The translations under genes and the position numbers were made by a program. From Christiangramia sabulilitoris (GTDB lineage: Bacteria > Bacteroidota > Bacteroidia > Flavobacteriales > Flavobacteriaceae): 64,000 nucleotides of DNA. Numbering within the stretch: position 1 is the stretch's first letter; every line of letters starts with the position of its first letter. The notes beneath the pieces were generated by a model. The model worked only from the letters and a program-made list of their open reading frames with translations, was not told the origin of the DNA and did not search any database. The DNA lies in assembly GCF_007050985.1 (NCBI RefSeq), contig NZ_VHSF01000002.1, positions 496,001-560,000 of the forward strand. The letters run 5' to 3'. Of this stretch, positions 4,999 to 47,218 are shown piece after piece.

Positions 4999-6210
4999 CT
5001 ATATGTCTTCACCGTTCACAAAATCCTGCAAATAGGAATATAAAGGGGTAAGCCTACCGTTTTCGGTCATTTTTGCTCTTCCCAAAACGCCATCTTTATC
5101 ATTATTGAAAAAAGCCGGGATCACGTTCTTTAGAAACATTTCACCAAATCCTTCACTGGCATCTTTAGGCAATTCACAGGGTAAATTATCTACGGCCATG
5201 ATCGTGATCGCTTTAGGATCTCGGAAATCTGTTTCCCCTCCGGTCTCAGGATCATAGCCATAAAATGGTTCGGCAATGGTAGAAGGTCGAATCGTACTGG
5301 CCACAGGACCTGCTATATCGCAGGATATATCTCCCACATATTTTATGCGGAAATCTTTATGCTGAATATCCTCTTTAGTATAAAACACCGGGGCGCCCTG
5401 CCCGTAAAAATGGCCGGCAATAAATACATCACTGGTTTTCGCGAATTTCATGAAATCTGATTCATAATTTTCGGGTACCTTATAGAATTCCTTCCGACTT
5501 CCTGTAGCTTCATCCTTTCTCCTGGCATAATCCAGCACATCGATATGGCAATATACCGGCTCATTAAATTCATTCGCCAGATATTGCTCAATTTCTACTT
5601 TTTTAATATTAAGGTGATCCAGGATCTCTTTGGCTCCATGCGCAACCTTACCACTACCCGTTAAAACGAATTTATAAGCAGGCAGCTTGATCTTATCAAG
5701 TTCTGCCAGCATTGATTTAAGATCTGGCAAGGTCTCGGCTTTAGGAAGTTCAAAACTGTTTTCCTTGATTCCTATCGCCCTGATCCCATTATAAGCGCCC
5801 ACCAGGCCGGCATAACGTCCAAACCCAATTAAACGCGCCTTGTTCTTATTGGTGATCACCTCGTGATCGTATAATTCGATATTTCGTTTCAGGATCTCGC
5901 GAAGCAGATCTCGATTATATGGCTGTTTTTTGATGGTATGAGAAAAGAAAAAGTACTTTTTGTCAGGTATCAGATTCGGGATGGGCACTTCTTTTACTCC
6001 CAGAAGTACATCGCAATCGCTGATATCTTCGGAAACTTCAAAACCTGCCTCTCGATATTCATCATCGCTAAATATCCTGACGTCAGAACTTTCCACTTTA
6101 AAAGAAGCTTCCGGAAACTGGGAAACCACTTTTTTTAGCATCTGTGGTGAAAAAACCACTCTTCTATCTGGTGGAGTTTTTCGTTCTTTGATCAGGGCGA
6201 ATTTTATCAT
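4999..6210 (-). CDS. Alanine/saccharopine dehydrogenase-like NAD(P)-dependent oxidoreductase
   Basis: The N-terminal part (MIKFALIKERKTPPDRRVVFSP ... DCDVLLGVKEVPIPNLIPDKKYFFFSHTIKKQPYN) is the AlaDh/PNT N-terminal fold, with the KE-x-K-x-P-x-D-x-R substrate motif and FFFSHT. The C-terminal half has a nucleotide-binding core (FVLTGSGKVAHGAKEIL, about 184-200) and the ISCDIAGPVASTIRPSTIAEPFYGYDP stretch typical of the LYS1-like saccharopine dehydrogenase group. It probably interconverts an amino acid and a keto acid with NAD(P); the substrate is not certain. I chose ATG 6210 (403 residues) over the TTG seven codons upstream because of the family N-terminus. Confidence 0.85.
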   Translation of the reverse strand: MIKFALIKERKTPPDRRVVFSPQMLKKVVSQFPEASFKVESSDVRIFSDDEYREAGFEVSEDISDCDVLLGVKEVPIPNLIPDKKYFFFSHTIKKQPYNRDLLREILKRNIELYDHEVITNKNKARLIGFGRYAGLVGAYNGIRAIGIKENSFELPKAETLPDLKSMLAELDKIKLPAYKFVLTGSGKVAHGAKEILDHLNIKKVEIEQYLANEFNEPVYCHIDVLDYARRKDEATGSRKEFYKVPENYESDFMKFAKTSDVFIAGHFYGQGAPVFYTKEDIQHKDFRIKYVGDISCDIAGPVASTIRPSTIAEPFYGYDPETGGETDFRDPKAITIMAVDNLPCELPKDASEGFGEMFLKNVIPAFFNNDKDGVLGRAKMTENGRLTPLYSYLQDFVNGEDI

Positions 6211-6244
6211 TCTGGTATGGGTTTTGTCCAATTTTGAAGTGTTC

Positions 6245-6252
6245 CAAAGATA
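6245..6252 (-). promoter_or_regulatory. -7 box TATCTTTG of the dehydrogenase promoter
   Basis: On the minus strand TATCTTTG matches the Bacteroidota -7 consensus TAnnTTTG exactly and lies about 35 bases before the ATG at 6210. I do not see a clear TTTG -33 element at the usual distance. Confidence 0.55.
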
Positions 6253-6266
6253 TAAATTTAATTGAG

Positions 6267-6300
6267 TATCTTTGCTGGCCCGATTGTAAACTACAATCGG
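6267..6300 (+). promoter_or_regulatory. TATCTTTG box followed by a 9-bp inverted repeat
   Basis: A second exact TAnnTTTG box lies on the plus strand (6267-6274), back to back with the dehydrogenase promoter. It is followed at once by a perfect inverted repeat, CCGATTGTA (6280-6288) and TACAATCGG (6292-6300), with a 3-base loop. If the box is a promoter, the repeat would cover the transcript start. It may instead be an operator or the dehydrogenase control site. Confidence 0.4.
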
Positions 6301-6337
6301 ATTTCTTTGAAATTTGACGACTGGAATTATTTATGAT

Positions 6338-6412
6338 TCGTCAACCTGAACTCGTTTCAGGTTCTTTATGATGAGATTCTGAACCTCCCGAAGGATCGGG
6401 ACATAATGACGG
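6338..6412 (+). repeat. REP-like interspersed palindromic repeat (copy 1)
   Basis: The segment has a hairpin CCTGAA-CTCG-TTTCAGG beginning with TCGTCA and a second hairpin TCCCGA-AGGA-TCGGGA (6386-6401), and ends in AATGACGG, which pairs loosely with the opening CGTCA. A related unit lies in opposite orientation at 23693-23722 (TTCGTCACCCTGAA ... TTCAGGGTCT when reversed). The shared core TCGTCA-x-CCTGAA-N4-5-TTCAGG marks a small interspersed repeat family. Confidence 0.6.
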
Positions 6413-6425
6413 TAATTAAAGTTCT

Positions 6426-6560
6426 CATTCGCGTTAGGGATAGCAGCGGAAATCCTTTTTTGAAGTGCTGAGCCCAGAGCCTGTCGAAGGGTCGAAGCAC
6501 AATAAAAAAGATTGCAGCGAATAGCCCGACCGCCAAGCGAAAGCGAGGTGGAAACGCCCA
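6426..6560 (+). ncRNA. Candidate structured RNA (possibly the Flavo-1 class) upstream of tmRNA
   Basis: No good gene lies here, but the stretch folds well by eye. GCGTT at 6431 pairs with AACGC at 6553. GGG of TTAGGGATAGCAGCGG can pair with CCC of ATAGCCCG. An arm starting AATCCTTTTTTGAAGTGC pairs with GCACAATAAAAAAGATT. A final hairpin CCGCC...GGTGG encloses a GCGAAAGC tetraloop hairpin. The words AGGGATAGCAGCGG and GATTGCAGCGAATAGCCCG resemble a conserved RNA motif I associate with Flavobacteria; the Rfam name Flavo-1 is from memory and unverified. The loop of the long arm contains a GAGCCTGTCGAAGGGTCGAAG repeat-like word. Confidence 0.5.
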
Positions 6561-6592
6561 GATAATCACAAAGAAAATGTTCATTATTTAAT

Positions 6593-6989
6593 GGGGTCGA
6601 CTTGGTTTTGACAGCGAGTCTAATTGAGTTGTAAGCACGTAGAGCGCTGGGATATAGCTCTTAAATCTCATATTTCACACTTTTTTAAACGGCGAGAATA
6701 ACTACGCCTTGGCTGCGTAACCGAATCACAGTAGGTTATACTTAGTCCCTGCAAGGCAGGGAGCCGAGATGTCTCGTGGAAGCCCTGATTTACGGCGTCC
6801 ACACCAGAGGCACCGATAAAGTAAATATAGGGAGCTCAGGGCCTTGATGAGTTTCCGAAACTTAAGCGAGGATACGTGGAAAGTTGGTGGTTTTCGGCCG
6901 GCTTTGCATCGACAATCAAGTGAAAACTAAACGTGTAGAAAGCATCTGAATTGCTTGTTTGGACGAGGGTTCGAACCCCTCCGACTCCA
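6593..6989 (+). ncRNA. ssrA: Transfer-messenger RNA (tmRNA)
   Basis: The 5' end GGGGTCG pairs over 7 bp with CGACTCC at 6982-6988 (one G-U), leaving discriminator A at 6989; CCA is presumably added after transcription. GGGTTCGAACCCC is the T arm. The internal tag frame (6691-6720) ends in ALAA. The length of about 397 nt is normal. tmRNA with SmpB rescues stalled ribosomes, adding a degradation tag. Its last bases form the left attachment site of an integrated element, so the natural downstream sequence now lies at 14148. Confidence 0.96.
6691..6720 (+). other. tmRNA proteolysis-tag reading frame
   Basis: GGC GAG AAT AAC TAC GCC TTG GCT GCG TAA encodes GENNYALAA; with the alanine carried by tmRNA itself the tag is A-GENNYALAA. 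The ALAA end is the usual ClpXP-type degron and the tag sequence fits Bacteroidota. Confidence 0.93.
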
Positions 6990-6990
6990 C
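6977..6990 (+). repeat. Left attachment site in the tmRNA 3' end
   Basis: CCCTCCGACTCCAC, the 3' strand of the T arm and acceptor stem, is repeated exactly at 14134-14147. The element carries a tyrosine integrase just inside the right copy. Integration therefore preserved the tmRNA 3' end. Confidence 0.85.
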
Positions 6991-6993
6991 AAT

Positions 6994-7037
6994 AAAAAAC
7001 CGTAATCCTATACTTTATAAGGGTTACGGTTTTTTTA
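6994..7037 (+). terminator. Element-borne terminator for tmRNA
   Basis: CCGTAATCC (7000-7008) pairs with GGGTTACGG (7021-7029, one G-U) and is followed by seven T residues; the A-rich left side makes it bidirectional. It lies directly after the left attachment site, so it ends tmRNA transcription in place of the displaced terminator at 14152. Confidence 0.85.
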
Positions 7038-7047
7038 TACCTCAAAT

Positions 7048-7066
7048 TGTACGATTAATGTACGGT
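7048..7066 (+). promoter_or_regulatory. Putative integrase arm-type site, left
   Basis: Two direct GTACG words start at 7049 and 7060, 11 bases apart (TGTACGATTAATGTACGG). The same arrangement occurs inside the right end at 13977-13995. Repeats near both ends of an integrated element are typical of arm-type binding sites for tyrosine recombinases. Confidence 0.5.
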
Positions 7067-7071
7067 ATGCT

Positions 7072-7500
7072 CTAATCAATCAAGAACCGGACTTCTTTCG
7101 GAGATCCTTCCGGAATAAGATGGTGAAATTTTATTGGAACTTCGAAAGTTATTATTTCAACTTTTTTATCCGAATTTTCTATTAGAGTGAATATTGCAGG
7201 AAACTCCCTTTCTTCAGCGGAGGATAAATAAGTATAATAAATCGTTTCCAAAGAACTTGAATTACTAAGTTGCTTTTCGTTTTGAATAGTCCATTTTTGA
7301 ATTTCTACAACTTCATTACCATAGCTAACAATAGTAATGTAGCCCTCATTAATAGTAATATCTCTCTTTATCCATTCAATCGTGATATCTGAATCTTCGA
7401 ATATTCCTAAATATTCACTTGCCAAACTTTGATAAGATTTTGACTGTGTATATCCTAAAGCAGAAAGAAATAAGAATAATAAAAACAAGGATCTTTGCAT
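7072..7500 (-). CDS. Exported hypothetical protein, element cargo
   Basis: The 142-residue product starts with a clear signal peptide (MQRSLFLLFLFLSALGYTQS, probable cleavage after TQS). The mature part is mixed alpha/beta, with alternating hydrophobic strands (YITIVSYGNEVVEIQKWTIQ, KVEIITFEVPIKFHHLI) and no Cys, so it is not a lipoprotein. I do not recognise a family. It sits at the outermost left of the element, convergent toward the att site, 12 bases after the next gene, with which it probably forms a transcript. AT-rich codon use matches the rest of the element. Confidence 0.65.
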   Translation of the reverse strand: MQRSLFLLFLFLSALGYTQSKSYQSLASEYLGIFEDSDITIEWIKRDITINEGYITIVSYGNEVVEIQKWTIQNEKQLSNSSSLETIYYTYLSSAEEREFPAIFTLIENSDKKVEIITFEVPIKFHHLIPEGSPKEVRFLID

Positions 7501-7512
7501 ATTGTAAGATAA

Positions 7513-7938
7513 TCATTTCAAATATGTAAATTTTGATCTTCTAATGTACACCTCATCACTCCCATCAATTCCAATTCTATCTCCTCCGCACCTAATATCT
7601 TTAGGTATAATATGACCTTCTTTTTTAATTTCGATATCACGAATCAATCTTTTTATAATTAAACTATCAATTCCAATTTTTACTAAATGGTCTTTTATCC
7701 TATTTTTTATAACCTCTTTCCAAGTAGAAAAATGACCAATATGTATAGTTTTCATGCAATAAATAAAACCATCACAATCTACCAGGACTGTCCAGAGATT
7801 TAAGGAAATTTCAGTTTGGCTACCACCGAATTTTGAAGCCATAAAATAGTAATCTATCTCAATACCGCCTAAAGTATTAGCTGGCTGAGATCTTTGATTT
7901 TTGATCAAAGTGTTTCCGATATAATGATTAAGAGACAT
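7513..7938 (-). CDS. Hypothetical protein, element cargo
   Basis: This is a 141-residue soluble protein. The middle alternates strand-like segments (GIEIDYYFMASKFGGSQTEISLNLWTVLVDCDGFIYCMKTIHIGHF) with a basic helix (STWKEVIKNRIKDHLVKIGIDSLIIKRLIRDIEIKK). It has two cysteines in DCDGFIYC and a glycine-rich RCGGDRIGIDGSDEVYIRR near the end. No family is recognised. It is probably co-transcribed with the exported protein at 7072 and is divergent from the lipoprotein at 8108. Confidence 0.6.
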   Translation of the reverse strand: MSLNHYIGNTLIKNQRSQPANTLGGIEIDYYFMASKFGGSQTEISLNLWTVLVDCDGFIYCMKTIHIGHFSTWKEVIKNRIKDHLVKIGIDSLIIKRLIRDIEIKKEGHIIPKDIRCGGDRIGIDGSDEVYIRRSKFTYLK

Positions 7939-8107
7939 ACATTCATTTTAGGATTATTTCCCAAATTTAGGATTATTTCCTATTTATTTTTTGAGTCTGT
8001 ACTATTTTTTATCTTATTATTTTTTTTATATTTAACCGTACTATTTCCCTACCGAGTACAAGTATGGAGAATCCTCCATTTTATTTAATTAACCAAATTA
8101 CTTAAGA

Positions 8108-8755
8108 ATGAAAAAGTATTTTTATTTAGTCCTCGGACTTATTATGATTTCCTGCTCATCTCCTTTGGACAAGAATTACAATAAGGAAACAATGCAAGAA
8201 GATTTAAAGCAAATAGGTGAATCTGGTAATGTTGATGATGATGAGAAAAAGTTAATTGCAGGATGGATTTTTAAATCAGGTCTAACTGGTGAAAGTTTAG
8301 AAGGTAAGTCTTATTCTGATATTTTAGAAGAAGCCAAAAATTATAAAAAAGAGCAGGAAGAATTAGCAGCTCGGGCACAAAAAGAAGAAGAGGAAAGAAG
8401 ATCCAAATTAGGTGCGGCTCTTACCGTTGCTATGTATGATAAGGGTTATGAAGAATTTAGATACCAGGAGTATTTGACTTATGGATTAGCTTTCAAGAAT
8501 AAAAGCGATAAAAATATAAGAGCATTTAAGGGTTCGCTTTCAATTAAGGATTTATTTGATACAGAAATAAAATCTATAAATCTTACTATTGATGATCCAA
8601 TCAAGGCAGGTGAAACTCATAAAGCCACTTACACTACTGACTACAACCAGTTCATGGATAGCGATTCCAGGTTAAAGAATAAAGATTTGGACGATTTAGT
8701 AATAGTTTGGAATCCTGAAAAAATCATTTTTGATGATGGGACTACTCTAGAATAA
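8108..8755 (+). CDS. Lipoprotein with acidic helical N-domain, element cargo
   Basis: The lipobox is clear (LGLIMISC, Cys about residue 17), so the protein is lipid-anchored. Residues 30-100 are highly charged and helical (KKEQEELAARAQKEEEERRSKLG), likely a coiled coil. The C-terminal half (LTYGLAFKNKSDKNIRAFKGSLSIKDLFDTEIKSINLTID ... AGETHKATY) looks like an immunoglobulin-like or FxLYD-type beta domain. This is the only plus-strand gene of the element and it has its own terminator. Function is unknown; surface-exposure or exclusion roles are possible but unproven. Confidence 0.75.
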   Translation: MKKYFYLVLGLIMISCSSPLDKNYNKETMQEDLKQIGESGNVDDDEKKLIAGWIFKSGLTGESLEGKSYSDILEEAKNYKKEQEELAARAQKEEEERRSKLGAALTVAMYDKGYEEFRYQEYLTYGLAFKNKSDKNIRAFKGSLSIKDLFDTEIKSINLTIDDPIKAGETHKATYTTDYNQFMDSDSRLKNKDLDDLVIVWNPEKIIFDDGTTLE

Positions 8756-8773
8756 ACTAGTTATAATTAGTTA

Positions 8774-8813
8774 AAATTACCTCCTTACTAATTTAATAGA
8801 AGGAGGTATTTTA
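8774..8813 (+). terminator. Bidirectional terminator between convergent genes
   Basis: TACCTCCTT (8778-8786) and AAGGAGGTA (8800-8808) form a perfect 9-bp stem flanked by A-rich and T-rich tracts. It separates the lipoprotein gene from the minus-strand genes that end at 8841. Confidence 0.8.
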
Positions 8814-8840
8814 ATTTGATATAAATCTGTTTTTATGGGG

Positions 8841-9218
8841 TTATTCAAACTGGCATACAACTTCACCGAGAAGAAAAATTTTGTTATCATGCATACCGGT
8901 ATTATTGTATAAAGAGGCTATTTTAGCCGCCTTTAGATTATAATAAACTGCCATAAACCCCACCCTTTCCTGCTCTGTCTGGCTTTTTAAATATTCCTCT
9001 ATATCCTGATTTATATCTAACAGAAGAGGCCTCTCAGATGCGTTTGAATATTTACTCCAGTATTCTCTTAATTGTTCTTTAAGTTGATCCGGATCTAAAT
9101 TTTCATCGCCAAATATTTTAAAGCCTTTTTCTAGTACGGTGCAAATTTTATGACTGGATAAATCATGCGCTTCCAGTAGATTAATAAACTCAGGTATTGT
9201 TTTAAATGAGGCCTTCAT
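8841..9218 (-). CDS. Hypothetical phage-like protein
   Basis: The 125-residue soluble, mostly helical protein (FKTIPEFINLLEAHDLSSHKICTVLEKGFKIFGDENL; DQLKEQLREYWSKYSN) has no motif I can name. Its ATG overlaps the stop of the upstream gene (TAATG), so the two are translationally coupled. It is the last gene of the element's long minus-strand block. Confidence 0.65.
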   Translation of the reverse strand: MKASFKTIPEFINLLEAHDLSSHKICTVLEKGFKIFGDENLDPDQLKEQLREYWSKYSNASERPLLLDINQDIEEYLKSQTEQERVGFMAVYYNLKAAKIASLYNNTGMHDNKIFLLGEVVCQFE

Positions 9219-9478
9219 TATTCTGTAAAATCTATAGTAATTACTGGTTGGTCTTTATCTTGTTTTATCTCAGTACTTTTTAATTTTGGCACTACATACT
9301 GTGCCAAATCTAAAAAGGCCTTAATGCGATCTTTAGGCTCTAACTCATCAAAATCCTGATGCAGTCTATCCATGTTATCCTCTAGTAAATACTTAAAGCG
9401 TTCGCGTATTTCGGTAGTAGCTTTATTTTTACTGCCTTTTTTTCGACCTCCAAGATTATTACCTTCTTTAAATGGCAT
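9218..9478 (-). CDS. Small phage-type DNA-binding-like protein (GGRKKGSKNK N-terminus)
   Basis: The 86 residues begin MPFKEGNNLGGRKKGSKNKATTEIRERFKYLL. This GxxxGGRxKGSxNK basic arm followed by a helical segment recurs in small proteins of Bacteroidota prophages and islands (terminase-small-subunit-like or DUF5681-like). The middle (LEPKDRIKAFLDLAQYVVPKLKSTEI) is also typical of that group. A nucleic-acid-binding role is inferred from the basic arm. It is coupled to the downstream gene by a TAATG overlap. Confidence 0.72.
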   Translation of the reverse strand: MPFKEGNNLGGRKKGSKNKATTEIRERFKYLLEDNMDRLHQDFDELEPKDRIKAFLDLAQYVVPKLKSTEIKQDKDQPVITIDFTE

Positions 9479-9567
9479 GATACATTGTGTTAGTTAATCA
9501 TTAATAAAAGAACGCACCGCCAGAAGTTAAATAAAGAGGGTTAACGATGCGCTCAATTACTTAGTCC

Positions 9568-10110
9568 TTAGGCTTTGAATAAATTCGGATTTATTTCAAG
9601 TCTGTTATTCTTTAAAAGAAATTTTCCCTGTATGCCCCGTTGTAATTGAGCATAAGTAACGTTTGTAAATTCTTCCAGTTCTGAGGCACATTGTAAAAAC
9701 CTTTCCAGGGTTTCATGTTCCTTTTCCATCCCTTCGGCTAAATACCAATTATAATCCTCCTGATCCAGAGTTAAAGCGGTGCTTTTCTTAGTAACCTTCA
9801 AGCCCTTACAAGTACCTTTAAGCCTGTTATATTCTCCGAATAATTTACTTACCATACTTTGATCAAACTCAGTATTTTTAATTGCTTTCTCCTTCTGAAC
9901 GCCTTTAGGAAAAAACTGCTTGTTTTCTTCCCAGTATTGATCCAAGATATATTCAACAGGGTTATCTATAAATGCCTTGTAATCGTGTATTTCAACTTCG
10001 GCTTTTTCCGCCTCCATCAGCATATCATTAAATAGATCCTGCATTTTAGTTTGCTTGGATAGTTCCGTTAAATATCCAGATTCGTTAAAGTGAATGACTT
10101 TTTTACTCAT
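9568..10110 (-). CDS. Hypothetical element protein (helical)
   Basis: I chose the ATG at 10110 (MSKKVIHFNESGYLTEL, 180 residues) rather than the upstream start, because the extra 21 residues read like non-coding leader and overlap the previous gene. The product is acidic and helical (MQDLFNDMLMEAEKAEVEIHDYKAFIDNPVEYILDQYWEENKQFF). The ending LLKNNRLEINPNLFKA is conserved-looking in similar island proteins I have seen, but I cannot name the family. Confidence 0.62.
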   Translation of the reverse strand: MSKKVIHFNESGYLTELSKQTKMQDLFNDMLMEAEKAEVEIHDYKAFIDNPVEYILDQYWEENKQFFPKGVQKEKAIKNTEFDQSMVSKLFGEYNRLKGTCKGLKVTKKSTALTLDQEDYNWYLAEGMEKEHETLERFLQCASELEEFTNVTYAQLQRGIQGKFLLKNNRLEINPNLFKA

Positions 10111-10114
10111 ATTA

Positions 10115-10297
10115 TTATTGATTTGTGGATTTACTATGTTTGAGAAGGGTGTATTTACGATCAGAAGAAACACCTTGCCCTAAATCTTTTTTATCTGGAT
10201 AGTTTTCTAACATCCAATTTTTTAATGCCTGGATCCTTTGTGCGTTATTCACTTTCGAGGCTGTTAAGTGATACGTATCTAACATAGGTTGAAACAT
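10115..10297 (-). CDS. Small basic hypothetical protein
   Basis: The 60-residue frame (TASKVNNAQRIQALKNWMLENYPDKKDLGQGVSSDRKYTLLKH) sits between the ribbon-helix-helix gene and the 180-residue gene. It overlaps the former by 53 bases in another frame if the first ATG is used; a start at the fifth codon reduces the overlap. Composition looks coding but no family is recognised. Confidence 0.42.
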   Translation of the reverse strand: MFQPMLDTYHLTASKVNNAQRIQALKNWMLENYPDKKDLGQGVSSDRKYTLLKHSKSTNQ

Positions 10298-10397
10298 CCA
10301 GACCTACTTTTTCGGCTTTGCTTTTAAGCCTTGTCACATCCTCTGACTTATATCGAACGCCCATTATAGAGCTTCTTTTATTTATATTATTATCCAT
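10245..10397 (-). CDS. Ribbon-helix-helix (CopG/MobC-like) DNA-binding protein, 50 aa
   Basis: This short frame starts at ATG 10397 and ends with TAA at 10245. Its sequence includes SSIMGVRYKSEDVTRLKSKA and then EKVGLDVSTYVRYVSL: a beta strand (GVRYK), then two helices with the xxVSxYVRxxxL pattern of MobC/RHH proteins. In mobilisable elements MobC-like proteins help a relaxase at oriT; others are repressors. No relaxase is present here, so a regulatory or accessory mobilisation role are both possible. Confidence 0.6.
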   Translation of the reverse strand: MDNNINKRSSIMGVRYKSEDVTRLKSKAEKVGLDVSTYVRYVSLNSLESE

Positions 10398-10481
10398 GAT
10401 TTAGAGTATTTTATACGCTTGTACAACTGAATAACAAGAAAGAGTTGATTTTGTGACATTCATTTTCAAGATTTTTGCAAT

Positions 10482-10514
10482 AAAAAAACCGCCAATTTTG
10501 CAACTAGCGGTTTT
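10482..10514 (-). terminator. Terminator after the Lin1244/Lin1753-domain gene
   Basis: Read on the minus strand, AAACCGC and GCGGTTT close a loop of about 13 bases and are followed by a run of T. It lies 20 bases after the stop of the gene at 10535-11326 and splits the element into an integrase-replication unit and a downstream unit. Confidence 0.75.
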
Positions 10515-10534
10515 ATCTAAAACTTTCCTTCTAA

Positions 10535-11326
10535 CTATAATACTCCAGTCAAATAATGATCTTTCTTTTGCTTACTGCCGTATAATTTTGAGTCCTTAGC
10601 AAGAAAGGCTTCAACATAAGTATCTACTCTTTCAAGAAAATGAGTAGGATGAGTAATCATCGTGTTATACTTTATATTCTCCTGCTGAAATAAGCCTTTT
10701 AAAGCCATTCTAAATTCCTCTCGAGTATAATCTTCCCTAAACTTTTTAAAGTTCGCTAGATCCTCTGGTTTAAGTCTTTTAAGATTAGAATCTGCATTCT
10801 TATAAGTTTTTCTGCATTTAGCCCAATCTTCCAAAAAATCATTCTCTGTAAAAGCAGAAAGAGAGATTTCTTTTTCTTTCTTTTCTTTTACTTTCTTTTC
10901 ATTTAATGCTTTGCCTTCGCTATGCGTTCGCATTAAAGTAGAATCATTCTTTTCCTTCTTATTCCAACGCTTATTGGCAGCCTCTCGAGCCTTATCAGAT
11001 TTCTCATGCATTTTCATCATTCTTTCTAGAAGGCTCTTCGAATAAAATTTAGTTCCACATTCTGTAAATTCAAATAAATTAAAATCTTCCACTATTTCTT
11101 GGATGGTTTCCGGATCAACCCTAAGATCATAGCCTATTAACTTATAATCTTTCGAGCAGCAATAGTCTTTATTTTCTCTCATTTTTTCGATGATGCTCCA
11201 ATACACCCCGTATCCTTCCATACCAAATTCCATCCGTAACGCTAAAATTTTCTCATCATTCCTGGCGTTACTATCGTGAGAGAAATAGTAAGCTTCTTTC
11301 CTATTATTTAAACTTTCCTTTTTCAT
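10535..11326 (-). CDS. Lin1244/Lin1753-domain (DUF4373) replication-type protein
   Basis: The N-terminal half (AYYFSHDSNARNDEKILALRMEFGMEGYGVYWSIIEKMREN ... LIGYDLRVDPETIQEIVEDFNLFE) is the Lin1244/Lin1753 N-terminal domain found in phage and plasmid replication-initiation or DnaD-like proteins. A basic linker (DKAREAANKRWNKKEK) and a C-terminal helical part follow (FKKFREDYTREEFRMALKGLFQQENIKYNTMITHPTHFLERVDTYVEAFL), resembling DnaD-type ends. It probably starts element replication or loads helicase; that is inference. It is tightly packed behind the 92-residue gene (2 bases apart). Confidence 0.78.
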   Translation of the reverse strand: MKKESLNNRKEAYYFSHDSNARNDEKILALRMEFGMEGYGVYWSIIEKMRENKDYCCSKDYKLIGYDLRVDPETIQEIVEDFNLFEFTECGTKFYSKSLLERMMKMHEKSDKAREAANKRWNKKEKNDSTLMRTHSEGKALNEKKVKEKKEKEISLSAFTENDFLEDWAKCRKTYKNADSNLKRLKPEDLANFKKFREDYTREEFRMALKGLFQQENIKYNTMITHPTHFLERVDTYVEAFLAKDSKLYGSKQKKDHYLTGVL

Positions 11327-11328
11327 CT

Positions 11329-11607
11329 TTAAAATAGTTTTAGTTGGTTTGACTTAGGAAATAATTCGGGATCTGCGGTATATTCATTTACAGAAGGATA
11401 TCCGGTTATCGAGCACCTTCTTTTTTTCAATATCGCAAGACGTTCCTCCTTAAGTAAAGTATTAACATATCTACAAATGTTTTCCCTCATTACACCCGTA
11501 TAAACATCTGCCTCTTTCATAGTCATAGGTTGTTCTTTAAACGCTAAATAGATTAATCGTAATTGATCAAAATATTTTTTATCTCCGTGTATATCATTCA
11601 ATTCCAT
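11329..11607 (-). CDS. Winged-helix-like small protein of mobile elements
   Basis: The 92-residue protein has a likely winged-helix core: KYFDQLRLIYLAFKEQPMTMKEADVYTGVMRENICRYVNTLLKEERLAILKKRRC, with a helix-turn-helix around MTMKEADVYTG / RENICRYVNTLLKE. Such proteins are common in Bacteroidota islands, next to DUF4373 proteins. It lies 4 bases after the excisionase-like gene and 2 bases before the replication gene, indicating one operon. Confidence 0.7.
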   Translation of the reverse strand: MELNDIHGDKKYFDQLRLIYLAFKEQPMTMKEADVYTGVMRENICRYVNTLLKEERLAILKKRRCSITGYPSVNEYTADPELFPKSNQLKLF

Positions 11608-11611
11608 AACC

Positions 11612-11896
11612 CTACTTCTTTAATTCAGTTAGAGATTCCATTAACTCACTTCTCTTATAGTATCTTCTATTAGCAATACCATAGGCTTTTACTTTGCCCT
11701 TATTAGTCCATGCCCACAGCGTACTGGAATTAATTTTAAGAAGTTTACAGGTTTCTTCTCTTGTAAGAAGTTCGTCTTCAGCTTCGTGTTTTCTGAAGGT
11801 TTTTTGAAAAGTTTCAAGCTGACTTTTTACGCTTTCCTGAATTAGTCTTGTTAACTTTTCAGGAGTAACGCTTTGTAATAAAACTGAATGTTCCAT
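11612..11896 (-). CDS. Helix-turn-helix protein of the excisionase (HTH_17) type
   Basis: The C-terminal 50 residues are a MerR-like HTH_17 domain: DELLTREETCKLLKINSSTLWAWTNKGKVKAYGIANRRYYKRSEL. This is the standard pattern of small excisionases and element regulators in Bacteroidota. The N-terminus (LTRLIQESVKSQLETFQKTFRKHE) is a helical extension. It is well placed to control excision or transcription of the operon it heads. Confidence 0.84.
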   Translation of the reverse strand: MEHSVLLQSVTPEKLTRLIQESVKSQLETFQKTFRKHEAEDELLTREETCKLLKINSSTLWAWTNKGKVKAYGIANRRYYKRSELMESLTELKK

Positions 11897-11987
11897 TGAT
11901 TCTTATATTAAAATTATAAGCGCAATGAAGTACTGGAATCACGACTAAAAAGACCGCAGTTTGCAACTTTTTCGCCGCCAGTGATTA

Positions 11988-12674
11988 TTATAGTTTATAA
12001 GCTTGTTTCAAATTGGAATAGGTACTAAGTCTATGCCTATTGTTACTTTGTTTAATGTTCGTAAATTCAATTTTCTTCAGTGATATTTCGTAGGTTTCGT
12101 TTATCCAATCTCGAAAATTAACCTTACTTACGGTTGGATGTATTAAACGATCACGCCGCATTGCTTCAAAAATGAAACTAACATCGGCTCTACTATTTTC
12201 GTTAATCTTCCATTCTTCAAAAAGAACTTCCCATAATTGAAAAGCACCAGGCGCAAAGATTGATAAATGACCACCTTCCATAGGAAGTTTCTCATCATCT
12301 CTCAGCTTAGAATGAAGAAGATTAATATATTTTTTAACCTGCTTTTTATAGCTAGGTTTCTTCAAAAGGCTTAAATCCAATTTTGCTATGTGACTAAGTT
12401 CATTTTCGATAAAATCTTTTTCCGTCAACTCAAGGCCATCTTGATATTTAGAAAAATTCAATTTACCTATATCTTTTGCAACACCATTCACCGGCACAAA
12501 TTCATCACTTTCTACAGATCTTTCATCACTATTATTAAAGTACCAAACACATAAGTTATTATTATAAATTTCTTCTACGTTTTGAAATGAATTTTCTGTC
12601 CTCTTTAATATGTTACTTAGCAGAATTGATGAATCAAGTTGATTTAAAAAATTGTAAAATTTTGATTTATCCAT
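11988..12674 (-). CDS. Hypothetical protein coupled to the integrase
   Basis: This is a 228-residue protein with no motif I recognise. It has an acidic middle (VESDEFVPVNGVAKDIGKLNFSKYQDGLELTEKDFIENEL) and a C-terminal region with FIFEAMRRDRLIHPTVSKVNFRDWINETYEISLKKIEF, resembling the small C-terminal helical domains of phage-island proteins. Its ATG overlaps the integrase stop (TAATG), so it is translated with the integrase and may assist recombination. Confidence 0.68.
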   Translation of the reverse strand: MDKSKFYNFLNQLDSSILLSNILKRTENSFQNVEEIYNNNLCVWYFNNSDERSVESDEFVPVNGVAKDIGKLNFSKYQDGLELTEKDFIENELSHIAKLDLSLLKKPSYKKQVKKYINLLHSKLRDDEKLPMEGGHLSIFAPGAFQLWEVLFEEWKINENSRADVSFIFEAMRRDRLIHPTVSKVNFRDWINETYEISLKKIEFTNIKQSNNRHRLSTYSNLKQAYKL

Positions 12675-13939
12675 TATTCAAAGTAGTTGTAAGCATCCAA
12701 GGCTAAATCCTTGTTGCTCTTCTTAATATAATTTAGAAAGGCCTTTTCTGAAGTATGCCCTGTTATTGTTCTTAAATAGGTTGTAGGCACTCTACCATAG
12801 TGATTAGTAGCAAATGAGCGCCTTCCAATATGAGAAGTAACCAGTTCCCATTTTTTAAAGGTATCTAAAATATCTCTATAATCGTTTTTAGTCGGCGTTA
12901 CTCCATCCGGGGCAATACTTACCCTCCTTTTTCCCTGGACTTCTTCATTTATCTGCGCCTTTTTACAAACTATCTTAATATAGTCATTGTATTTCTGAGC
13001 GCTAATAGCTCTGGGAAAGTTACCATTATATTTTTCGGTTACTTCCCTGGCTTTTTTGGTGAAAGGAATAGACATTAACTTTTTAGTTTTTTTCTGGCGA
13101 AACTCTAGTAAAAATTTACCATCCTCCCTCCGGATCATATCTTTGGTAAACCTCATGAAGTCCGAAACCCTTTGTCCCGTAAAATAGCTTATTAAAAGCC
13201 AATCTCTAGCATTATTCAAATAGTCCTCTTTCAATTTAAGCTTCTCAACTTTTTCTATTTCCTCCGGCGTTAAATAAATATGCTTAACCTCTTCCCTTTG
13301 TAGTTTAAGTCCGTCTAATTGATGATGGATATCTAATCCTAGGTGCTTAGCATGAAAGCAGATTGTTTTAATCAATACTAACTCCCGTTGTTGTGTATTT
13401 TGGGAGTAATTGTGCTTATTACTGAAATCAACATAAGCCTTTTTAAAGCCCTCATTTATATCTTTAATATAAATAGTCCTTCTTAATTCTTTTTGCAGTC
13501 TAAGCATCTTATTTTTAGCAATGTTCACCTTCTTTACATTGCTTTTAGATATTTCGTTTTTTCTATAATCGAGATAATATTCAATATACCCTATTAGATC
13601 CTTAGGAATCTCTTTTCCAGTCTGATTAGGATTATAGAAATTAGAAATAACTGATTCTAACCAGGGTTTATCAATTCGGCTTGGATCGCTTTTATAATAT
13701 TCATCTAGGATAAAACTTTCTAATTTACTCAGCTGTTGATTAACCTCTGTTTGAAGGTTTCTCATTTCAATATCCTTAATTCTTTTTTTATCGTGAAAGT
13801 TCTGCCAGTAGTCTTTTGAGATTATTTCCTGAGTCTTTCCTCCTATTACATTATCCTTTTCATTATAACGAAACAATAAACGGAGATTAACAGGTGCTTT
13901 TTCCTTTTTAGAACGGTATAAAAAATTGACTGTAGCCAT
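12674..13939 (-). CDS. Tyrosine recombinase (integrase) of the ssrA element
   Basis: This 421-residue integrase has an N-terminal arm-binding region (MATVNFLYRSKKEKAPVNLRLLF), a SAM-like core-binding domain (about 110-220) and a catalytic domain with TGQRVSDF (Arg about residue 257), SHIGRRSFATNHYG (H-x-x-R about 371-374) and ITGHTSEKAFLNYI (second His and the nucleophilic Tyr about 403). All catalytic residues are present, so it should be active. It is read away from the right end of the element and lies close to the 14134 attachment site, as is usual. The target is the tmRNA 3' end. Confidence 0.93.
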   Translation of the reverse strand: MATVNFLYRSKKEKAPVNLRLLFRYNEKDNVIGGKTQEIISKDYWQNFHDKKRIKDIEMRNLQTEVNQQLSKLESFILDEYYKSDPSRIDKPWLESVISNFYNPNQTGKEIPKDLIGYIEYYLDYRKNEISKSNVKKVNIAKNKMLRLQKELRRTIYIKDINEGFKKAYVDFSNKHNYSQNTQQRELVLIKTICFHAKHLGLDIHHQLDGLKLQREEVKHIYLTPEEIEKVEKLKLKEDYLNNARDWLLISYFTGQRVSDFMRFTKDMIRREDGKFLLEFRQKKTKKLMSIPFTKKAREVTEKYNGNFPRAISAQKYNDYIKIVCKKAQINEEVQGKRRVSIAPDGVTPTKNDYRDILDTFKKWELVTSHIGRRSFATNHYGRVPTTYLRTITGHTSEKAFLNYIKKSNKDLALDAYNYFE

Positions 13940-13976
13940 AACCCTTAGTATTAGTACAATACAAAATTACCAAAAA

Positions 13977-13996
13977 TGTACGGCTATTGTACGGTA
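13977..13996 (+). promoter_or_regulatory. Putative integrase arm-type site, right
   Basis: Two GTACGG words start at 13978 and 13989, 11 bases apart (TGTACGGCTATTGTACGG), matching the left-end pair at 7049/7060. They lie in the integrase leader, so the protein may also repress its own gene here. Confidence 0.5.
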
Positions 13997-14133
13997 ATAC
14001 ACAAATAAATACAAATTAAATAAAACCATTGCAATTAAAAAAAGCTTTTAAAACCCCTTTATTTATTGTTTTTATGAATCTACACTAGGTTATTAGGTTA
14101 TTACAATAATATCTCATTTTGTGTATTAGTGCT

Positions 14134-14147
14134 CCCTCCGACTCCAC
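14134..14147 (+). repeat. Right attachment site
   Basis: This is an exact 14-bp copy of the tmRNA 3' end (CCCTCCGACTCCAC). Everything to the right is expected to be the original sequence downstream of ssrA. Confidence 0.85.
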
Positions 14148-14151
14148 CTTC

Positions 14152-14193
14152 GCTCGCCGAAGCTCATTTTTAGAGCGAAGGCGAGCTTTTTTT
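14152..14193 (+). terminator. Displaced original tmRNA terminator
   Basis: GCTCGCC (14152-14158) pairs with GGCGAGC (14180-14186), with an inner GCTC/GAGC pairing across a 3x3 internal loop. Seven T follow. In the uninterrupted chromosome it would lie a few bases after tmRNA. Confidence 0.7.
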
Positions 14194-14274
14194 ATTTTAG
14201 ACCATTTCCATAATTTTAGTTTAATCTGGCGAGCTTCGGTGGACAAAGTCCACCCTGATTTAATTTGTCTAATT

Positions 14275-14517
14275 ATGGATGCATGGACCGTTTATTTAGT
14301 AAGGTGTAGTGACGATTCAATTTACGTGGGTTGTACTTCTGATTTTGTTCGTAGAAAGAAAGAACATAATACGGGAAAAGTAAAGTCTACACAATCTAGA
14401 TTACCGGTTGTTTTGGTGACGCAAATTGTCTTTCATGATAAATACAAGGCTTATGCTTTCGAAAAATATCTAAAAACAGGTTCTGGCAGAGCTTTCTTAA
14501 ATAAACGCTTAGTCTAG
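14275..14517 (+). CDS. Single-domain GIY-YIG nuclease-family protein
   Basis: I place the start at ATG 14275 (80 residues), because the in-frame stretch upstream is the terminator hairpin and palindromes. The protein is one GIY-YIG domain: WTVYLVRCSDDSIYVGCTSDFVRRKKEHN holds the two signature strands and the catalytic-type Arg, and AFEKYLKTGSGRAFLNKRL holds the Glu and the conserved C-terminus of UPF0213-like proteins. It is a stand-alone nuclease of unknown target. In Flavobacteriaceae, as I recall, such genes often sit right behind stable RNA genes with palindromic repeats, as here. Confidence 0.87.
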   Translation: MDAWTVYLVRCSDDSIYVGCTSDFVRRKKEHNTGKVKSTQSRLPVVLVTQIVFHDKYKAYAFEKYLKTGSGRAFLNKRLV

Positions 14518-14797
14518 ATAATTTTTGCGGTTGAATGTGTAGATGAATCGACAAATTGAACGAAAAATTATTTCTATGTCCACTATATGGTAAAAAGACC
14601 CCTTCCGGAGTCTTTCATTTATTATCTAAGGATTCAATTAGTTAATCCAGCTCATGACACACTTTTTCACTGAAGTTATTCCATTTAAAATATCCCTGTC
14701 AGGTTGTTAATCCCACAGGTTCTTATCACCTGGTTGGTACACGGGTTAAGCCTGCTAAGTAGCAGGTTTTATAAAGCCGGTTTTTCCTCTGACACCC
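14518..14797. other. Intergenic stretch with hairpins
   Basis: There is a weak terminator-like hairpin AAAGAC...GTCTTT (14594-14615) after the GIY-YIG gene and a perfect CCTGCT-AAGT-AGCAGG hairpin (14751-14766) followed by TTTT, plus a CAGGT...ACCTG hairpin at 14716-14732. No gene is seen. Confidence 0.5.
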
Positions 14798-15337
14798 TTA
14801 CTCTTCTGCTGGTGGCGATAAGGTATAACCCCAGGGTTCCAGAAAACTAAGTGGATCCATATAGGTCTCTTCTTTCGTATTCAGGCCCTCATCGTTGTAA
14901 GTTCCAACTGTAAATCCATGTACCGTGGTTTTAATATTGCTGGGAGGTAAATCACCAAATTTTCCGGTCTGGGTTCCAGTAGCCGTCCATTGCGTATAGG
15001 TTTTATTCCCTATGACCTCGATGGAATCGTAGCTAAAGTTCATATCTGGCATCGCGGTGAGGAACTGATTCATAAGATCTTTATAAGCCTGCCTGCCTTC
15101 CCCGGTCTTCTCTCCATTTTGGTATCTTACAAAGTCCTCTGCCATATGTTGATCAATAAGATTCATATCCTGATCATTCCAGGCTTGAAATAGCGCTTTA
15201 TTGGAATCAAGGATCCTGGATTCCATTTGCGCCTTGGATTCATCCTTTTCTGAAGGTTCAGATTCTTTTTTCTCAGCACAGGAGAAAAACATCAATAGGG
15301 TAAAGAGAACTACCCAAAGGTTTAATCGAGTTTTCAT
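14798..15337 (-). CDS. SnoaL-like lipoprotein
   Basis: I chose the ATG at 15337 (MKTRLNLWVVLFTLLMFFSC), which gives a clean lipoprotein signal with Cys about residue 20; the upstream ATG adds seven residues before it. After a charged linker (AEKKESEPSEKDESKAQ) comes a SnoaL-like NTF2 fold: LFQAWNDQDMNLIDQHMAEDFVRYQNGEKTGEGRQAYKDLMNQFLTAMPDMNFSYDSI and QWTATGTQTGKF. SnoaL-like proteins include polyketide cyclases and many ester-cyclase homologues of unknown function. It stands alone between two repeat-rich intergenic regions. Confidence 0.85.
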   Translation of the reverse strand: MKTRLNLWVVLFTLLMFFSCAEKKESEPSEKDESKAQMESRILDSNKALFQAWNDQDMNLIDQHMAEDFVRYQNGEKTGEGRQAYKDLMNQFLTAMPDMNFSYDSIEVIGNKTYTQWTATGTQTGKFGDLPPSNIKTTVHGFTVGTYNDEGLNTKEETYMDPLSFLEPWGYTLSPPAEE

Positions 15338-15508
15338 ATTACAACGTGGTTGGTTCAACCTAAAGGTAATATATTTCTTCTTAAATATATATTCATAAAC
15401 GACTGTTTTTGAACAACTTAGTTGCTAAAAATTTAAAACACCCCAATTTCATTCATGACCCGGAATCTTCAATCTGACATAACGGGAAGTTTCACGCTCA
15501 CGTTGAAG

Positions 15509-15690
15509 GTTCATCGCCGGGATCGATAATAATTGCTTCTCCTTTTTGAACAAAAAGCTGAAAGGTAGAGCCGATATATCCACACCGATATTCTTTTAAA
15601 GCTCGTTTTCTGCATAAATTCTACTATAAAAACCGGAACGAGCGCTCTGGAAATTGTATACAAAAGGTAAACCTGGTCCCGCTCTCGTGA
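15509..15690 (-). pseudogene. Decayed copy of the downstream methyltransferase gene
   Basis: Bases 15509-15597 are nearly the same as 18008-18097, the end of the methyltransferase gene on the same strand; the first 31 bases are identical. Translated, KNIGVDISALPFSFLFKKEK matches KNSGVDISAPPFSFKFKEKK of the intact protein. Upstream in the same frame, after a stop, a weaker stretch VYNFQSARSGFYSR may be what is left of VYSKNLWGGSRSAFYSG near the intact N-terminus. That would imply an internal deletion of about 400 bases. The first part is direct observation, the second is tentative. Confidence 0.7.
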
Positions 15691-16151
15691 CAGAATTACC
15701 TCCAAATCCATATGCCTTACAATTTAAAGATTCTAATACTATTAATGTTCTGACCTTAGATGAATAGAATTATAAGAAATATGAAATTAAATTTTGGTTT
15801 AAAACCCAATTGACTAATAATTAATATATTAGATCACCCCTGCTTTTCAAAGCAACAATTTATAATGGGCTTTTCACAATTCCTATTTGTCACAATTAGA
15901 TGTTGAAAAAGTATATCTGGATTGGAATAGTACGGTGAGAAATTCTGTAAAATTAATCTCAATTAGATGCTGAGATATTTAGAAGTCAACCGTACTGTAT
16001 TATAAAATCCTGATGCCTCGGAGGGGATGGAGATTTATAAAATTATCCTGAAAGAACACAGGAATAATTTACCTGAGGATATCTCAGCCAGGCTGGAATC
16101 GTCTATCTAGATTAGAAATTTTATTATTAATTATTTTTTATAAGCTAAATC
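15691..16151. other. Gene-poor stretch with repeats
   Basis: No convincing gene. A 14-base word CAATTAGATGYTGA occurs at 15893 and 15960. AGTACGGT (15929-15936) and ACCGTACT (15989-15996) form an inverted repeat around the second copy, and ATCTCA/TGAGAT make a small hairpin inside. A 27-codon frame at 16027-16110 (MEIYKIILKEHRNNLPEDIS) may be a gene remnant. The region lies beside the decayed methyltransferase copy and may be the scar of a lost insertion. Confidence 0.45.
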
Positions 16152-17189
16152 ATGAAAAAAAGTATTTTACTATCCGCCTTTTGTCTTTTTACTTTGATCC
16201 TGGTTGCCTGTAAAAATGAAAGTACCGAGCAAGAACAGGCAACAAAAAAATTGGAAACAGGAAAAAGTGAAAATCCAATTACTCCGCAATTCACGCTTAC
16301 CAAAGATCAGACCCATAATAAATTTAGTAGTGCTATAGAACCAATTCTGAAGGTTAAATCGGGTGCTATAATTGAAGTCTTTACAGAGGATGCTTTTGAC
16401 GAGCAATTAAATCCGAATTCTACAGTAGAAGATTTAAAGAATCTAAATTTTGAACCTATACATCCTTTAACCGGGCCGGTTTATGTTGAAGGTGCCGCTC
16501 CCGGGGATATATTAAAGGTTACACTGCTTAAAATTGAGCTTGGTGCATGGGGTTTTAATGCGATTTACCCGGGCTTTAGTTTTGTCGCAGACTCCATAAA
16601 AGGAGAATATTTGAGAATTTATGAACTGGGTAAAGACAGGACTCATGTAAGTTTTAATGATAAGATCAAGATCCCATTAAAACCGTTTTTAGGTGTTATG
16701 GGAGTTGCCCCGCCAACAGAAGAGATGCTATCTACCATTCCTCCGCGAGCAAATGGAGGAAATATGGACGATCCAAATCTTACAGAAGGTGTTACCGTTT
16801 ATTTCCCTGTATTCGTCGAAGGCGCATTATTTTCGGTTGGGGATGGACACGCAGCTCAAGGCCTTGGTGAGGTATGTGGCACAGCCATTGAAGCTCCATT
16901 AAGAGTAATTTATCAATTAGAGGTTATAAAAAACAAAACCATGAAAGAACCTCAATATGAAACCGAAGATTACTATGCGACTACAGGTTTTGCAACTACT
17001 ATAGATGACGCTGCTAAGAAGGCAACATTATACATGATCGATTATTTAATGCAGGAGCATAATTTGAGTGAAAATGAGGCCTATGCTTTATGCTCTCTGG
17101 CTGGAGATCTAAAAATTGCAGAAGCCGTAGATGTCCCTCATATGCTCGTAGTGATGCATATGCCCAAAGAAGTTCTGGGAATAAATTAA
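16152..17189 (+). CDS. Acetamidase/formamidase-family lipoprotein
   Basis: The lipobox (FTLILVAC, Cys about residue 20) gives a lipid anchor. The remaining sequence follows the FmdA/AmdA fold: IEPILKVKSGAIIEVFTEDAF, HPLTGPVYVEGAAPGDILKVTLLKIELG, the PFLGVMGVAPP segment, PPRANGGNMDDPNLTEGVTVYFPVFVEGALFSVGDGHAAQGLGEVCGTAIE with the metal-site His and Asp residues, and a C-terminal SLAGDLKIAEAVDVPHMLVVMHMP. Family members hydrolyse formamide or acetamide to the acid plus ammonia; export is unusual but seen in Bacteroidota. The true substrate is unknown. Confidence 0.88.
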   Translation: MKKSILLSAFCLFTLILVACKNESTEQEQATKKLETGKSENPITPQFTLTKDQTHNKFSSAIEPILKVKSGAIIEVFTEDAFDEQLNPNSTVEDLKNLNFEPIHPLTGPVYVEGAAPGDILKVTLLKIELGAWGFNAIYPGFSFVADSIKGEYLRIYELGKDRTHVSFNDKIKIPLKPFLGVMGVAPPTEEMLSTIPPRANGGNMDDPNLTEGVTVYFPVFVEGALFSVGDGHAAQGLGEVCGTAIEAPLRVIYQLEVIKNKTMKEPQYETEDYYATTGFATTIDDAAKKATLYMIDYLMQEHNLSENEAYALCSLAGDLKIAEAVDVPHMLVVMHMPKEVLGIN

Positions 17190-17420
17190 ATCTACAATTT
17201 AGGTTTAGCTTTCAACACTATTAAGCTTGTTCTTTAGATCTGATTACAATTTCTTATTTGTCAGTGATGTCATCATCTTTTTATACCAATTTCCTCCAGT
17301 TTCAGATATTCCTTTTAAGTCAAAAAAGTGGCTTGAACAGATATACTTAGGCTAATATGCCGTATTTTTAAGTATCGAATAATGATTTGATGAATGATCA
17401 CCTCCTGAAATACATAGATT

Positions 17421-47203: not shown

Positions 47204-47218
47204 TTTTGATTAGATTAA

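Follow-up and report, generated by a model that had tools for sequence, protein, structure and literature searches.

A putative phage satellite in the ssrA gene of a Flavobacteriaceae bacterium carries a candidate small-terminase-like packaging gene

INTRODUCTION

Phage satellites have been described mainly from a few bacterial groups. Two of these families resemble the element described here, a 7.16-kb island in the ssrA gene of Christiangramia sabulilitoris that lies within a stretch of 64,000 nucleotides (contig NZ_VHSF01000002.1, positions 496,001 to 560,000; hereafter the window). As given in the accessible part of PMC6092414, PICI/SaPI elements likewise have an integrase at one end, a helix-turn-helix (HTH) regulator, and a replication gene; their encapsidation genes, in the maps described there, include terS. 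The PICMI satellites of Vibrionaceae are similar in being about 6 kb long without capsid-remodelling genes, and in placing int before a gene that overlaps it and genes for an AlpA-type regulator and a primase (PMC10803314, accessible part). VEIMEs and tycheposons are satellite families proposed from marine bacteria that may overlap with the family presented here (PMC11389934, accessible part). For Bacteroidota, full-text literature searches of partial coverage, in which the papers listed were assessed from their titles and opening abstract lines, showed none on phage satellites; lateral transduction has been reported in this phylum, in a source whose accessible part does not use the word satellite (PMC12946183).

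From its gene content and the gene positions of its relatives, we consider the element to be probably a phage satellite, one that would redirect the packaging of a helper phage with its own TerS-like (small terminase subunit) protein, g5. The broader proposal, that it belongs to a Flavobacteriia satellite family in which some members, the window's included, steal packaging through an unrecognized DUF5681-like GGRxKGxxNK small terminase, we hold to be evenly balanced between right and wrong.

RESULTS

The element is bounded by copies of the tmRNA 3′ end

The ends of the element and the genes on which our argument depends are as follows, with protein lengths in amino acids (aa).

6593..6990, + strand: transfer-messenger RNA (tmRNA, ssrA) gene, the integration target, identified by ARAGORN and Rfam RF00023; its last 14 bp are one att copy
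6977..6990, + strand: att repeat on the tmRNA side, CCCTCCGACTCCAC, an exact repeat
7048..7064, + strand: putative arm-type site TGTACGATTAATGTACG, ~88 bp from the tmRNA-side end
9218..9478, − strand: g5, 86-aa GGRKKGSKNK protein, a proposed TerS-like packaging protein by the gene position of its relatives
10535..11326, − strand: g9, replication initiator with a Lin1244_N domain (Pfam 5.9e-15; PHROG 2562, replication initiation, 4e-27)
11612..11896, − strand: g11, excisionase-like HTH_17 protein (Pfam 3e-11), with relatives in 22 of 24 delimited elements
12674..13939, − strand: integrase, a tyrosine recombinase of 421 aa (Phage_integrase 1.8e-7; Phage_int_SAM_5 3.3e-6)
13977..13993, + strand: putative arm-type site TGTACGGCTATTGTACG, ~155 bp from the distal end
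14134..14147, + strand: distal att copy, followed by the same sequence as the empty ssrA flank of a same-genus genome (G016)

The element measures 7,157 bp between exact 14-bp copies of the tmRNA 3′ end. The initial annotation had noted the repeat at 14134, and it is indeed exact: with up to one mismatch allowed, CCCTCCGACTCCAC occurs in the window only at 6977–6990 and 14134–14147, and its mean count in shuffled sequences was 0.00 (n = 100). An uninterrupted ssrA site was found on contig C23 of G016, where CCCTCCGACTCCAC continues without interruption as CTTCGCTCGCCGAAGCTCATTTTT, which in the window comes right after 14147. G016 therefore joins 6990 to 14148, the very junction named beforehand as a check on the proposed integration. 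The tmRNA gene on C23 is flanked, as in the window, by relatives of an alanine-dehydrogenase-like gene and a GIY-YIG gene. A second uninterrupted ssrA site, in genome G001, has a flank that is similar to the window's and not identical to it. The element is GC-poor, at 32.2%, relative to the window as a whole (38.3%).

A chance repeat was ruled out by the lack of any further match with up to one mismatch, by the shuffles, and by the natural empty site. An assembly artefact is unlikely because bounded elements of similar gene order exist in other genomes. The bounded ends, the integrase, and the empty site in G016 bear out the integrative element first proposed from the sequence, and we regard a site-specific tyrosine-recombinase island in ssrA as confirmed. 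Integration of the element at ssrA is well supported by these sequence comparisons.

Several other features were observed around ssrA. At 6426–6535 of the window, immediately before the tmRNA gene, Rfam identified a Flavo-1 RNA (RF01705, 51 bits). Contig C1 of G016 (L068 1501–1897; L092) carries a second full-length tmRNA-like copy, 94% identical to that of the window, which adjoins an element of the order int-HTH-D5-DUF6371; the copy on C23 is the empty, normal site. In five same-genus genomes, the ssrA 3′ end carries two copies of CTCCGACTCCA separated by 161–169 bp of inserted sequence (L042 in G002, L045 in G004, L047 in G012, L048 in G006, and L052 in G014); the five inserts look alike by eye and may be a relic or a tiny passive element.

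Relatives of g5 occupy the usual position of a small terminase

The small terminase subunit is usually encoded upstream of the large one. Scans of viral contigs with g5 or a relative as protein query gave no confirmed relative; a DNA pattern built from the g5 motif succeeded, with at least 80 loci. Among the matches listed, 79 fell in an open reading frame (ORF), of which two were dropped with the motif late in the frame. In 70 of the remaining 77, an ORF on the same strand, 150 aa or longer, started within 1 kb downstream, and 62 of those 70 downstream genes matched PHROG_2, terminase large subunit, at E ≤0.001. Clustering reduces the 70 cases to 49 groups at 90% identity and to 34 at 50%. 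Chance adjacency to a terminase would be uncommon because a viral locus averages 13.4 ORFs. Among the 80 loci listed, the best viral relative matched g5 of the window at E 3.6e-18 and 41% identity.

Annotated phages gave a similar picture. A first search returned 25 phage records with g5 relatives, and 11 were examined. In seven, the next gene, or the one beyond a single tiny gene or tRNA, was an annotated terminase, labelled large subunit in six and “phage terminase” in one; in another record the next gene was unnamed. Relatives of g5 thus occupy the usual TerS position, many of them directly before the large terminase. Because of this placement directly upstream of the large terminase, we read g5 as TerS-like, and it may have TerS activity.

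The protein family itself has little annotation. Pfam gave no match for g5, and PHROGs matched it with families of unknown function. DUF5681 (PF18932), to which Pfam assigns no function, matched nine of 40 members of the g5 alignment at E ≤0.01, and g5 of the window itself does not reach it at E 0.1. Within the partial coverage of the literature, the one paper found to mention DUF5681 stated no function for it in its accessible part. In Salmonella phage STGO-35-1, which uses headful packaging, a DUF5681 protein was detected in the structural proteome, and its gene lies at 46,936–47,355 of a 47,483-bp map re-oriented to the start of the large terminase (PMC8954984, accessible part). Two AlphaFold models of g5 (pLDDT 74 and 72) have the same three-helix layout. 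Against PDB sequences, the g5 profile gave 13 matches at E ≤1 with no terminase among them, the best being an ion-channel receptor (0.0084).

The element encodes integration and replication genes without its own capsid

From the distal end, the gene order is integrase, g12, g11, g10, g9, g8, g7, g6, g5, g4, and g3–g1. The remaining genes are listed here.

7072..7500, − strand: g1, 142 aa, cargo; start resembling a secretion signal by eye, no assigned function
7513..7938, − strand: g2, 141 aa; relative in L092, ~4.6 kb from the second tmRNA copy of G016
8108..8755, + strand: g3, 215 aa, cargo; lipoprotein-like start by eye, and a relative that adjoins the integrase in L089
8841..9218, − strand: g4, a 125-aa ORF whose start overlaps the stop of g5
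9568..10110, − strand: g6, 180 aa; its relative is a 184-aa gene in L085
10115..10297, − strand: g7, small ORF of 60 aa from the ORF list, no assigned function
10245..10397, − strand: g8, 50-aa ribbon-helix-helix ORF, NikA-like (Pfam E 1.8e-7, above cut-off)
11329..11607, − strand: g10, 92 aa; present in seven other delimited elements and in the circular contig L071
11988..12674, − strand: g12; one-base overlap between its start and the integrase stop, and relatives in 15 of the 24 delimited elements

Thirteen element ORFs, including the integrase, g7, and g8, were searched against Pfam, and 10 against PHROGs. The initial annotation had described a complete tyrosine recombinase beside the distal repeat, an excisionase-like HTH gene, and a Lin1244-type replication gene, and the domain searches upheld all three: the 421-aa integrase has two Pfam integrase domains, g11 matches HTH_17, and g9 matches both Lin1244_N and a replication-initiation PHROG. 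The integrase gene lies 194 bp from the distal repeat and encodes TGQR, HIGRR, GH, and Y, which we take to be the catalytic residues of tyrosine recombinases. Its ORF and that of the initiator are intact. For g11, the roles of regulator and excisionase are inseparable by sequence. Relatives of the Lin1244 initiator are rare (two of 198 genomes, the window's own included), and one is carried by the viral contig L072.

As first noted from the sequence, no relaxase, large terminase, or capsid family was found above cut-off by Pfam or PHROGs in these ORFs. A complete prophage was thereby ruled out for the window, in which these searches gave no large terminase, portal, or capsid genes. The element lacks a capsid and tail gene set of its own, save for a weak match of g6 to a PHROG tail assembly chaperone (E 0.0033, using a longer reading of 9568–10173). 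Apart from the relative in L085, g6 had no match in 299 family genomes. A weak resemblance links g4 to an 84-aa gene after g5 in L133 (blastp 0.001–0.002 in a 17-protein set; hhalign probability 28%). No recognized Stl repressor was found in the element, and PADLOC matched no defence gene among 10 element ORFs (all but g5, g8, and g11).

The small ORF g8 had been overlooked in the initial annotation, and because of it we retain one rival to the satellite reading, namely an integrative mobilizable element that has an origin of transfer, borrows a relaxase and mating machinery, and uses the NikA-like protein as a relaxosome accessory. We consider this unlikely. The g8 match is above the Pfam cut-off, and iOriT elements, with an origin of transfer and no relaxase, have been described (PMC11389934, accessible part). 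The element itself has no relaxase above the Pfam cut-off, however; the best candidate is a match of g1 to Relaxase_C below cut-off, at E 0.049. PF03432, the sole relaxase family searched genome-wide, was absent from the genome and was matched in one of 14 control genomes. Moreover, the NikA-like match extends over 39 residues of a ribbon-helix-helix domain, a small fold for DNA binding that is also used by phage and plasmid regulators. A mobilizable element would also leave g5 and g6 unexplained.

Related elements share their ends and integration module

Scanning a genome collection for related integrases yielded 80 loci, nearly all from Bacteroidota and mostly from Flavobacteriia. RNA genes with repeated 3′ ends were sought in 56 of these 80 (L104–L159), the window, and four others. 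This delimited 24 elements, the window included and each counted once, bounded by 13–17-bp repeats; 33 of the 56 loci could not be bounded. Their targets are tmRNA genes in eight cases and tRNA genes in the other 16 (seven Leu, three Ala, three Arg, and one each of Phe, Met, and Gln). Sizes run from 5.0 to 11.4 kb, where the 10-kb flank examined limits the detectable size, and the 23 elements other than the window's each have a GC content below that of their own flanks. The integrase is at one end, and similar sizes and ends recur across many genera.

The commonest order is int, g12, g11, replication genes, and cargo. By blastp clusters, g11 is present in 22 of the 24, g12 in 15, g10 in eight, and g5 in six, with a D5-type helicase-primase in 11 and a DUF6371 gene in nine; in the window, the Lin1244 initiator takes the place of the last two. 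The same gene order in ssrA of related genomes had been named as a check, and ssrA-located relatives of similar order were found in L112, L133, and, with a more distant integrase, L083. Cargo of the relatives (L104–L157) includes defence-like genes (AbiH, IetAS, methylase, SocA/Panacea). Family scans were run on 133 proteins of the relative elements, leaving out the window, ORFs below 75 aa, and the integrase, g12, and g11 clusters. Because the best 25 of 55, 97, and 117 families were seen, these scans are no proof that relaxase or terminase genes are absent; the Terminase_2 gene of L071 itself was not among the 25.

A paired motif recurs near the ends of these elements. Allowing up to two mismatches, TGTACG-N5-TGTACG lies 131–200 bp from the integrase-side end in 18 of the 24, 60–115 bp from the other end in 20, and near both ends in 17. 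The corresponding counts per set in a Markov control were 0.135 on the integrase side, 0.135 at the other end, and 0 for both, and the element interiors held eight matches in 175,752 bp. These pairs, two of which are the sites listed for the window, may be arm sites of the integrase or excisionase.

A circular relative and shared packaging-region genes

Relatives that carry terminase genes connect the family to phage packaging regions. L071, a 6,925-bp contig from IMG/VR, ends with a copy of its own first 99 bases in which one base is ambiguous, and this terminal overlap implies a circle of 6,826 bp. It encodes int, g12, g11, g10, an AAA_25 ATPase, DUF6371, a g5 relative, a 203-aa gene, and a small terminase of family Terminase_2 (Pfam 2.4e-14). 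Just before int, L071 has two TGTACG pairs 231 bp apart, as expected if two element ends had joined between the pairs. Its origin in a viral collection is no proof of packaging.

L085 (genome G109, 5041–17408) is an element of 12.35 kb that lies in a tRNA-Leu gene between 20-bp repeats and carries an integrase. The start of its large terminase overlaps the end of its g5 relative, and the 184-aa g6 relative stands two genes before the latter. By size, no portal or capsid gene is evident in L085, most of whose ORFs were not scanned. In L077, a prophage-like locus from a same-genus genome, the int-g12-g11 module is followed farther along by a Terminase_2 TerS and a large terminase. L085 and L077 together indicate that elements with and without a terminase share integration modules and packaging-region genes. 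No relation was seen between g7 or g8 and the small genes of L085, or between g6 and the 203–236-aa genes of L071, L077, L084, and L112.

The same two loci bear on another rival, that the window holds an immobile prophage remnant whose late genes were lost. L077 combines the same integration module with TerS and TerL, and g6 and g5 resemble genes before the L085 terminase, which favors such a remnant. The intact integrase and initiator ORFs, the att repeats, and the arm sites speak against decay, however, as do the circular relative and the elements of similar size and ends in many genera, and we regard a remnant as very unlikely.

Further elements with RNA-end repeats carry g5 relatives: L083 (8.06 kb, ssrA), L082 (7.37 kb, tRNA-Ala), and L084 (13.26 kb, tRNA-Leu). 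L084 (3227–8501) and L073 share relatives of two large proteins as well as an integrase, and the 758-aa large protein of L084 matches the PHROG “virion structural protein” at 3.3e-60. With a g5 relative in L084 and a TerS-cluster gene in L073, these two may be small phages or capsid-forming satellites.

DISCUSSION

The initial annotation had left the choice between a phage satellite and a minimal mobilizable element. The satellite half of that pair has gained from the terminase position of the g5 family and from the Terminase_2 TerS in the circular relative; the mobilizable half stands as the less probable rival set out above. On the satellite reading, the integrase and the HTH_17 protein would restore ssrA by excising the element at the 14-bp repeats with the use of the arm-type sites, which lie ~155 and ~88 bp from its two ends. 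Excision of the window's copy is suggested by the family and its circular relative. The Lin1244-type initiator g9 would then replicate the excised circle, as its protein family suggests. With a helper phage multiplying in the same cell, g5, perhaps together with its neighbours g6 and g4, would direct the helper's large terminase onto satellite DNA; helper particles would then enclose that DNA and inject it into another cell. The helper, the packaging, and the transfer are the more conjectural part of this model. Because the element is 7 kb long and has no capsid genes, it would require either helper heads of small size or full heads filled with head-to-tail copies; the latter arrangement, in full-sized helper particles, is described for PICMI (PMC10803314, accessible part).

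A number of observations weigh against this model. The helper, its particles, and the transfer are hypothetical, and g8 suggests conjugation. No TerS family in Pfam or PHROGs matched g5, and searches of PDB and of viral structures with its pLDDT 74 model gave nothing at E 0.001. Among the viral matches listed, eight of the 70 downstream genes had no PHROG_2 match, and seven of the 77 matches had no suitable downstream ORF. Three of the 11 phage records, all of them from Bacteroides phages, place the g5 relative close to an integrase, and no terminase is annotated in the surrounding stretch. A terminase of the L085 type was not found in the window's own genome, where PHROG_2 gave two weak matches (5.6e-6 and 2.0e-5); its absence would fit a helper that arrives from outside. 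Finally, g5 is present in just six of the 24 delimited elements, once in two copies, and the others therefore move by other means or not at all.

Some of these same points favor a self-excising, replicating element or cargo island without a dedicated transfer system, in which g5 is a DNA-binding regulator and transduction occurs by chance. The 18 delimited relatives without g5, the defence-like cargo of some relatives (IetAS, AbiH, methylase), and the three Bacteroides phages in which the g5 relative is not beside a terminase are all compatible with it. Such an island would, however, not account for the adjacency to terminase of most g5 relatives examined in viral contigs, or for the Terminase_2 gene in L071, and we think it improbable. 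Both the cargo island and the decayed prophage fit less of the evidence than the satellite.

If the satellite reading is true, it would provide a satellite family with clear ends and a packaging gene open to experiment, and would point to the likely role of a protein family that neighbours the terminase in many phages and is labelled unknown. The g5-type gene would then be a marker for finding further satellites.

Compared with the known systems, the element departs from PICI/SaPI in phylum, in its 7-kb size, in a TerS-like protein of an uncharacterized family, and in having no recognized Stl repressor. PICMI sits beside fis in Vibrionaceae, whereas the present family occupies ssrA and tRNA genes of Flavobacteriia, and the window's member lies in ssrA of a Flavobacteriaceae host. 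The window also uses a Lin1244-type initiator, unlike the PICMI primase, and carries a TerS-like gene, whereas the word “terminase” is missing from the main text of the PICMI paper (PMC10803314). We do not class the element as PICI or PICMI because its site and host are not fis and Vibrionaceae and its induction by a helper is hypothetical. On the satellite reading, it would work like a small-terminase-carrying phage satellite, with a core that resembles PICMI.

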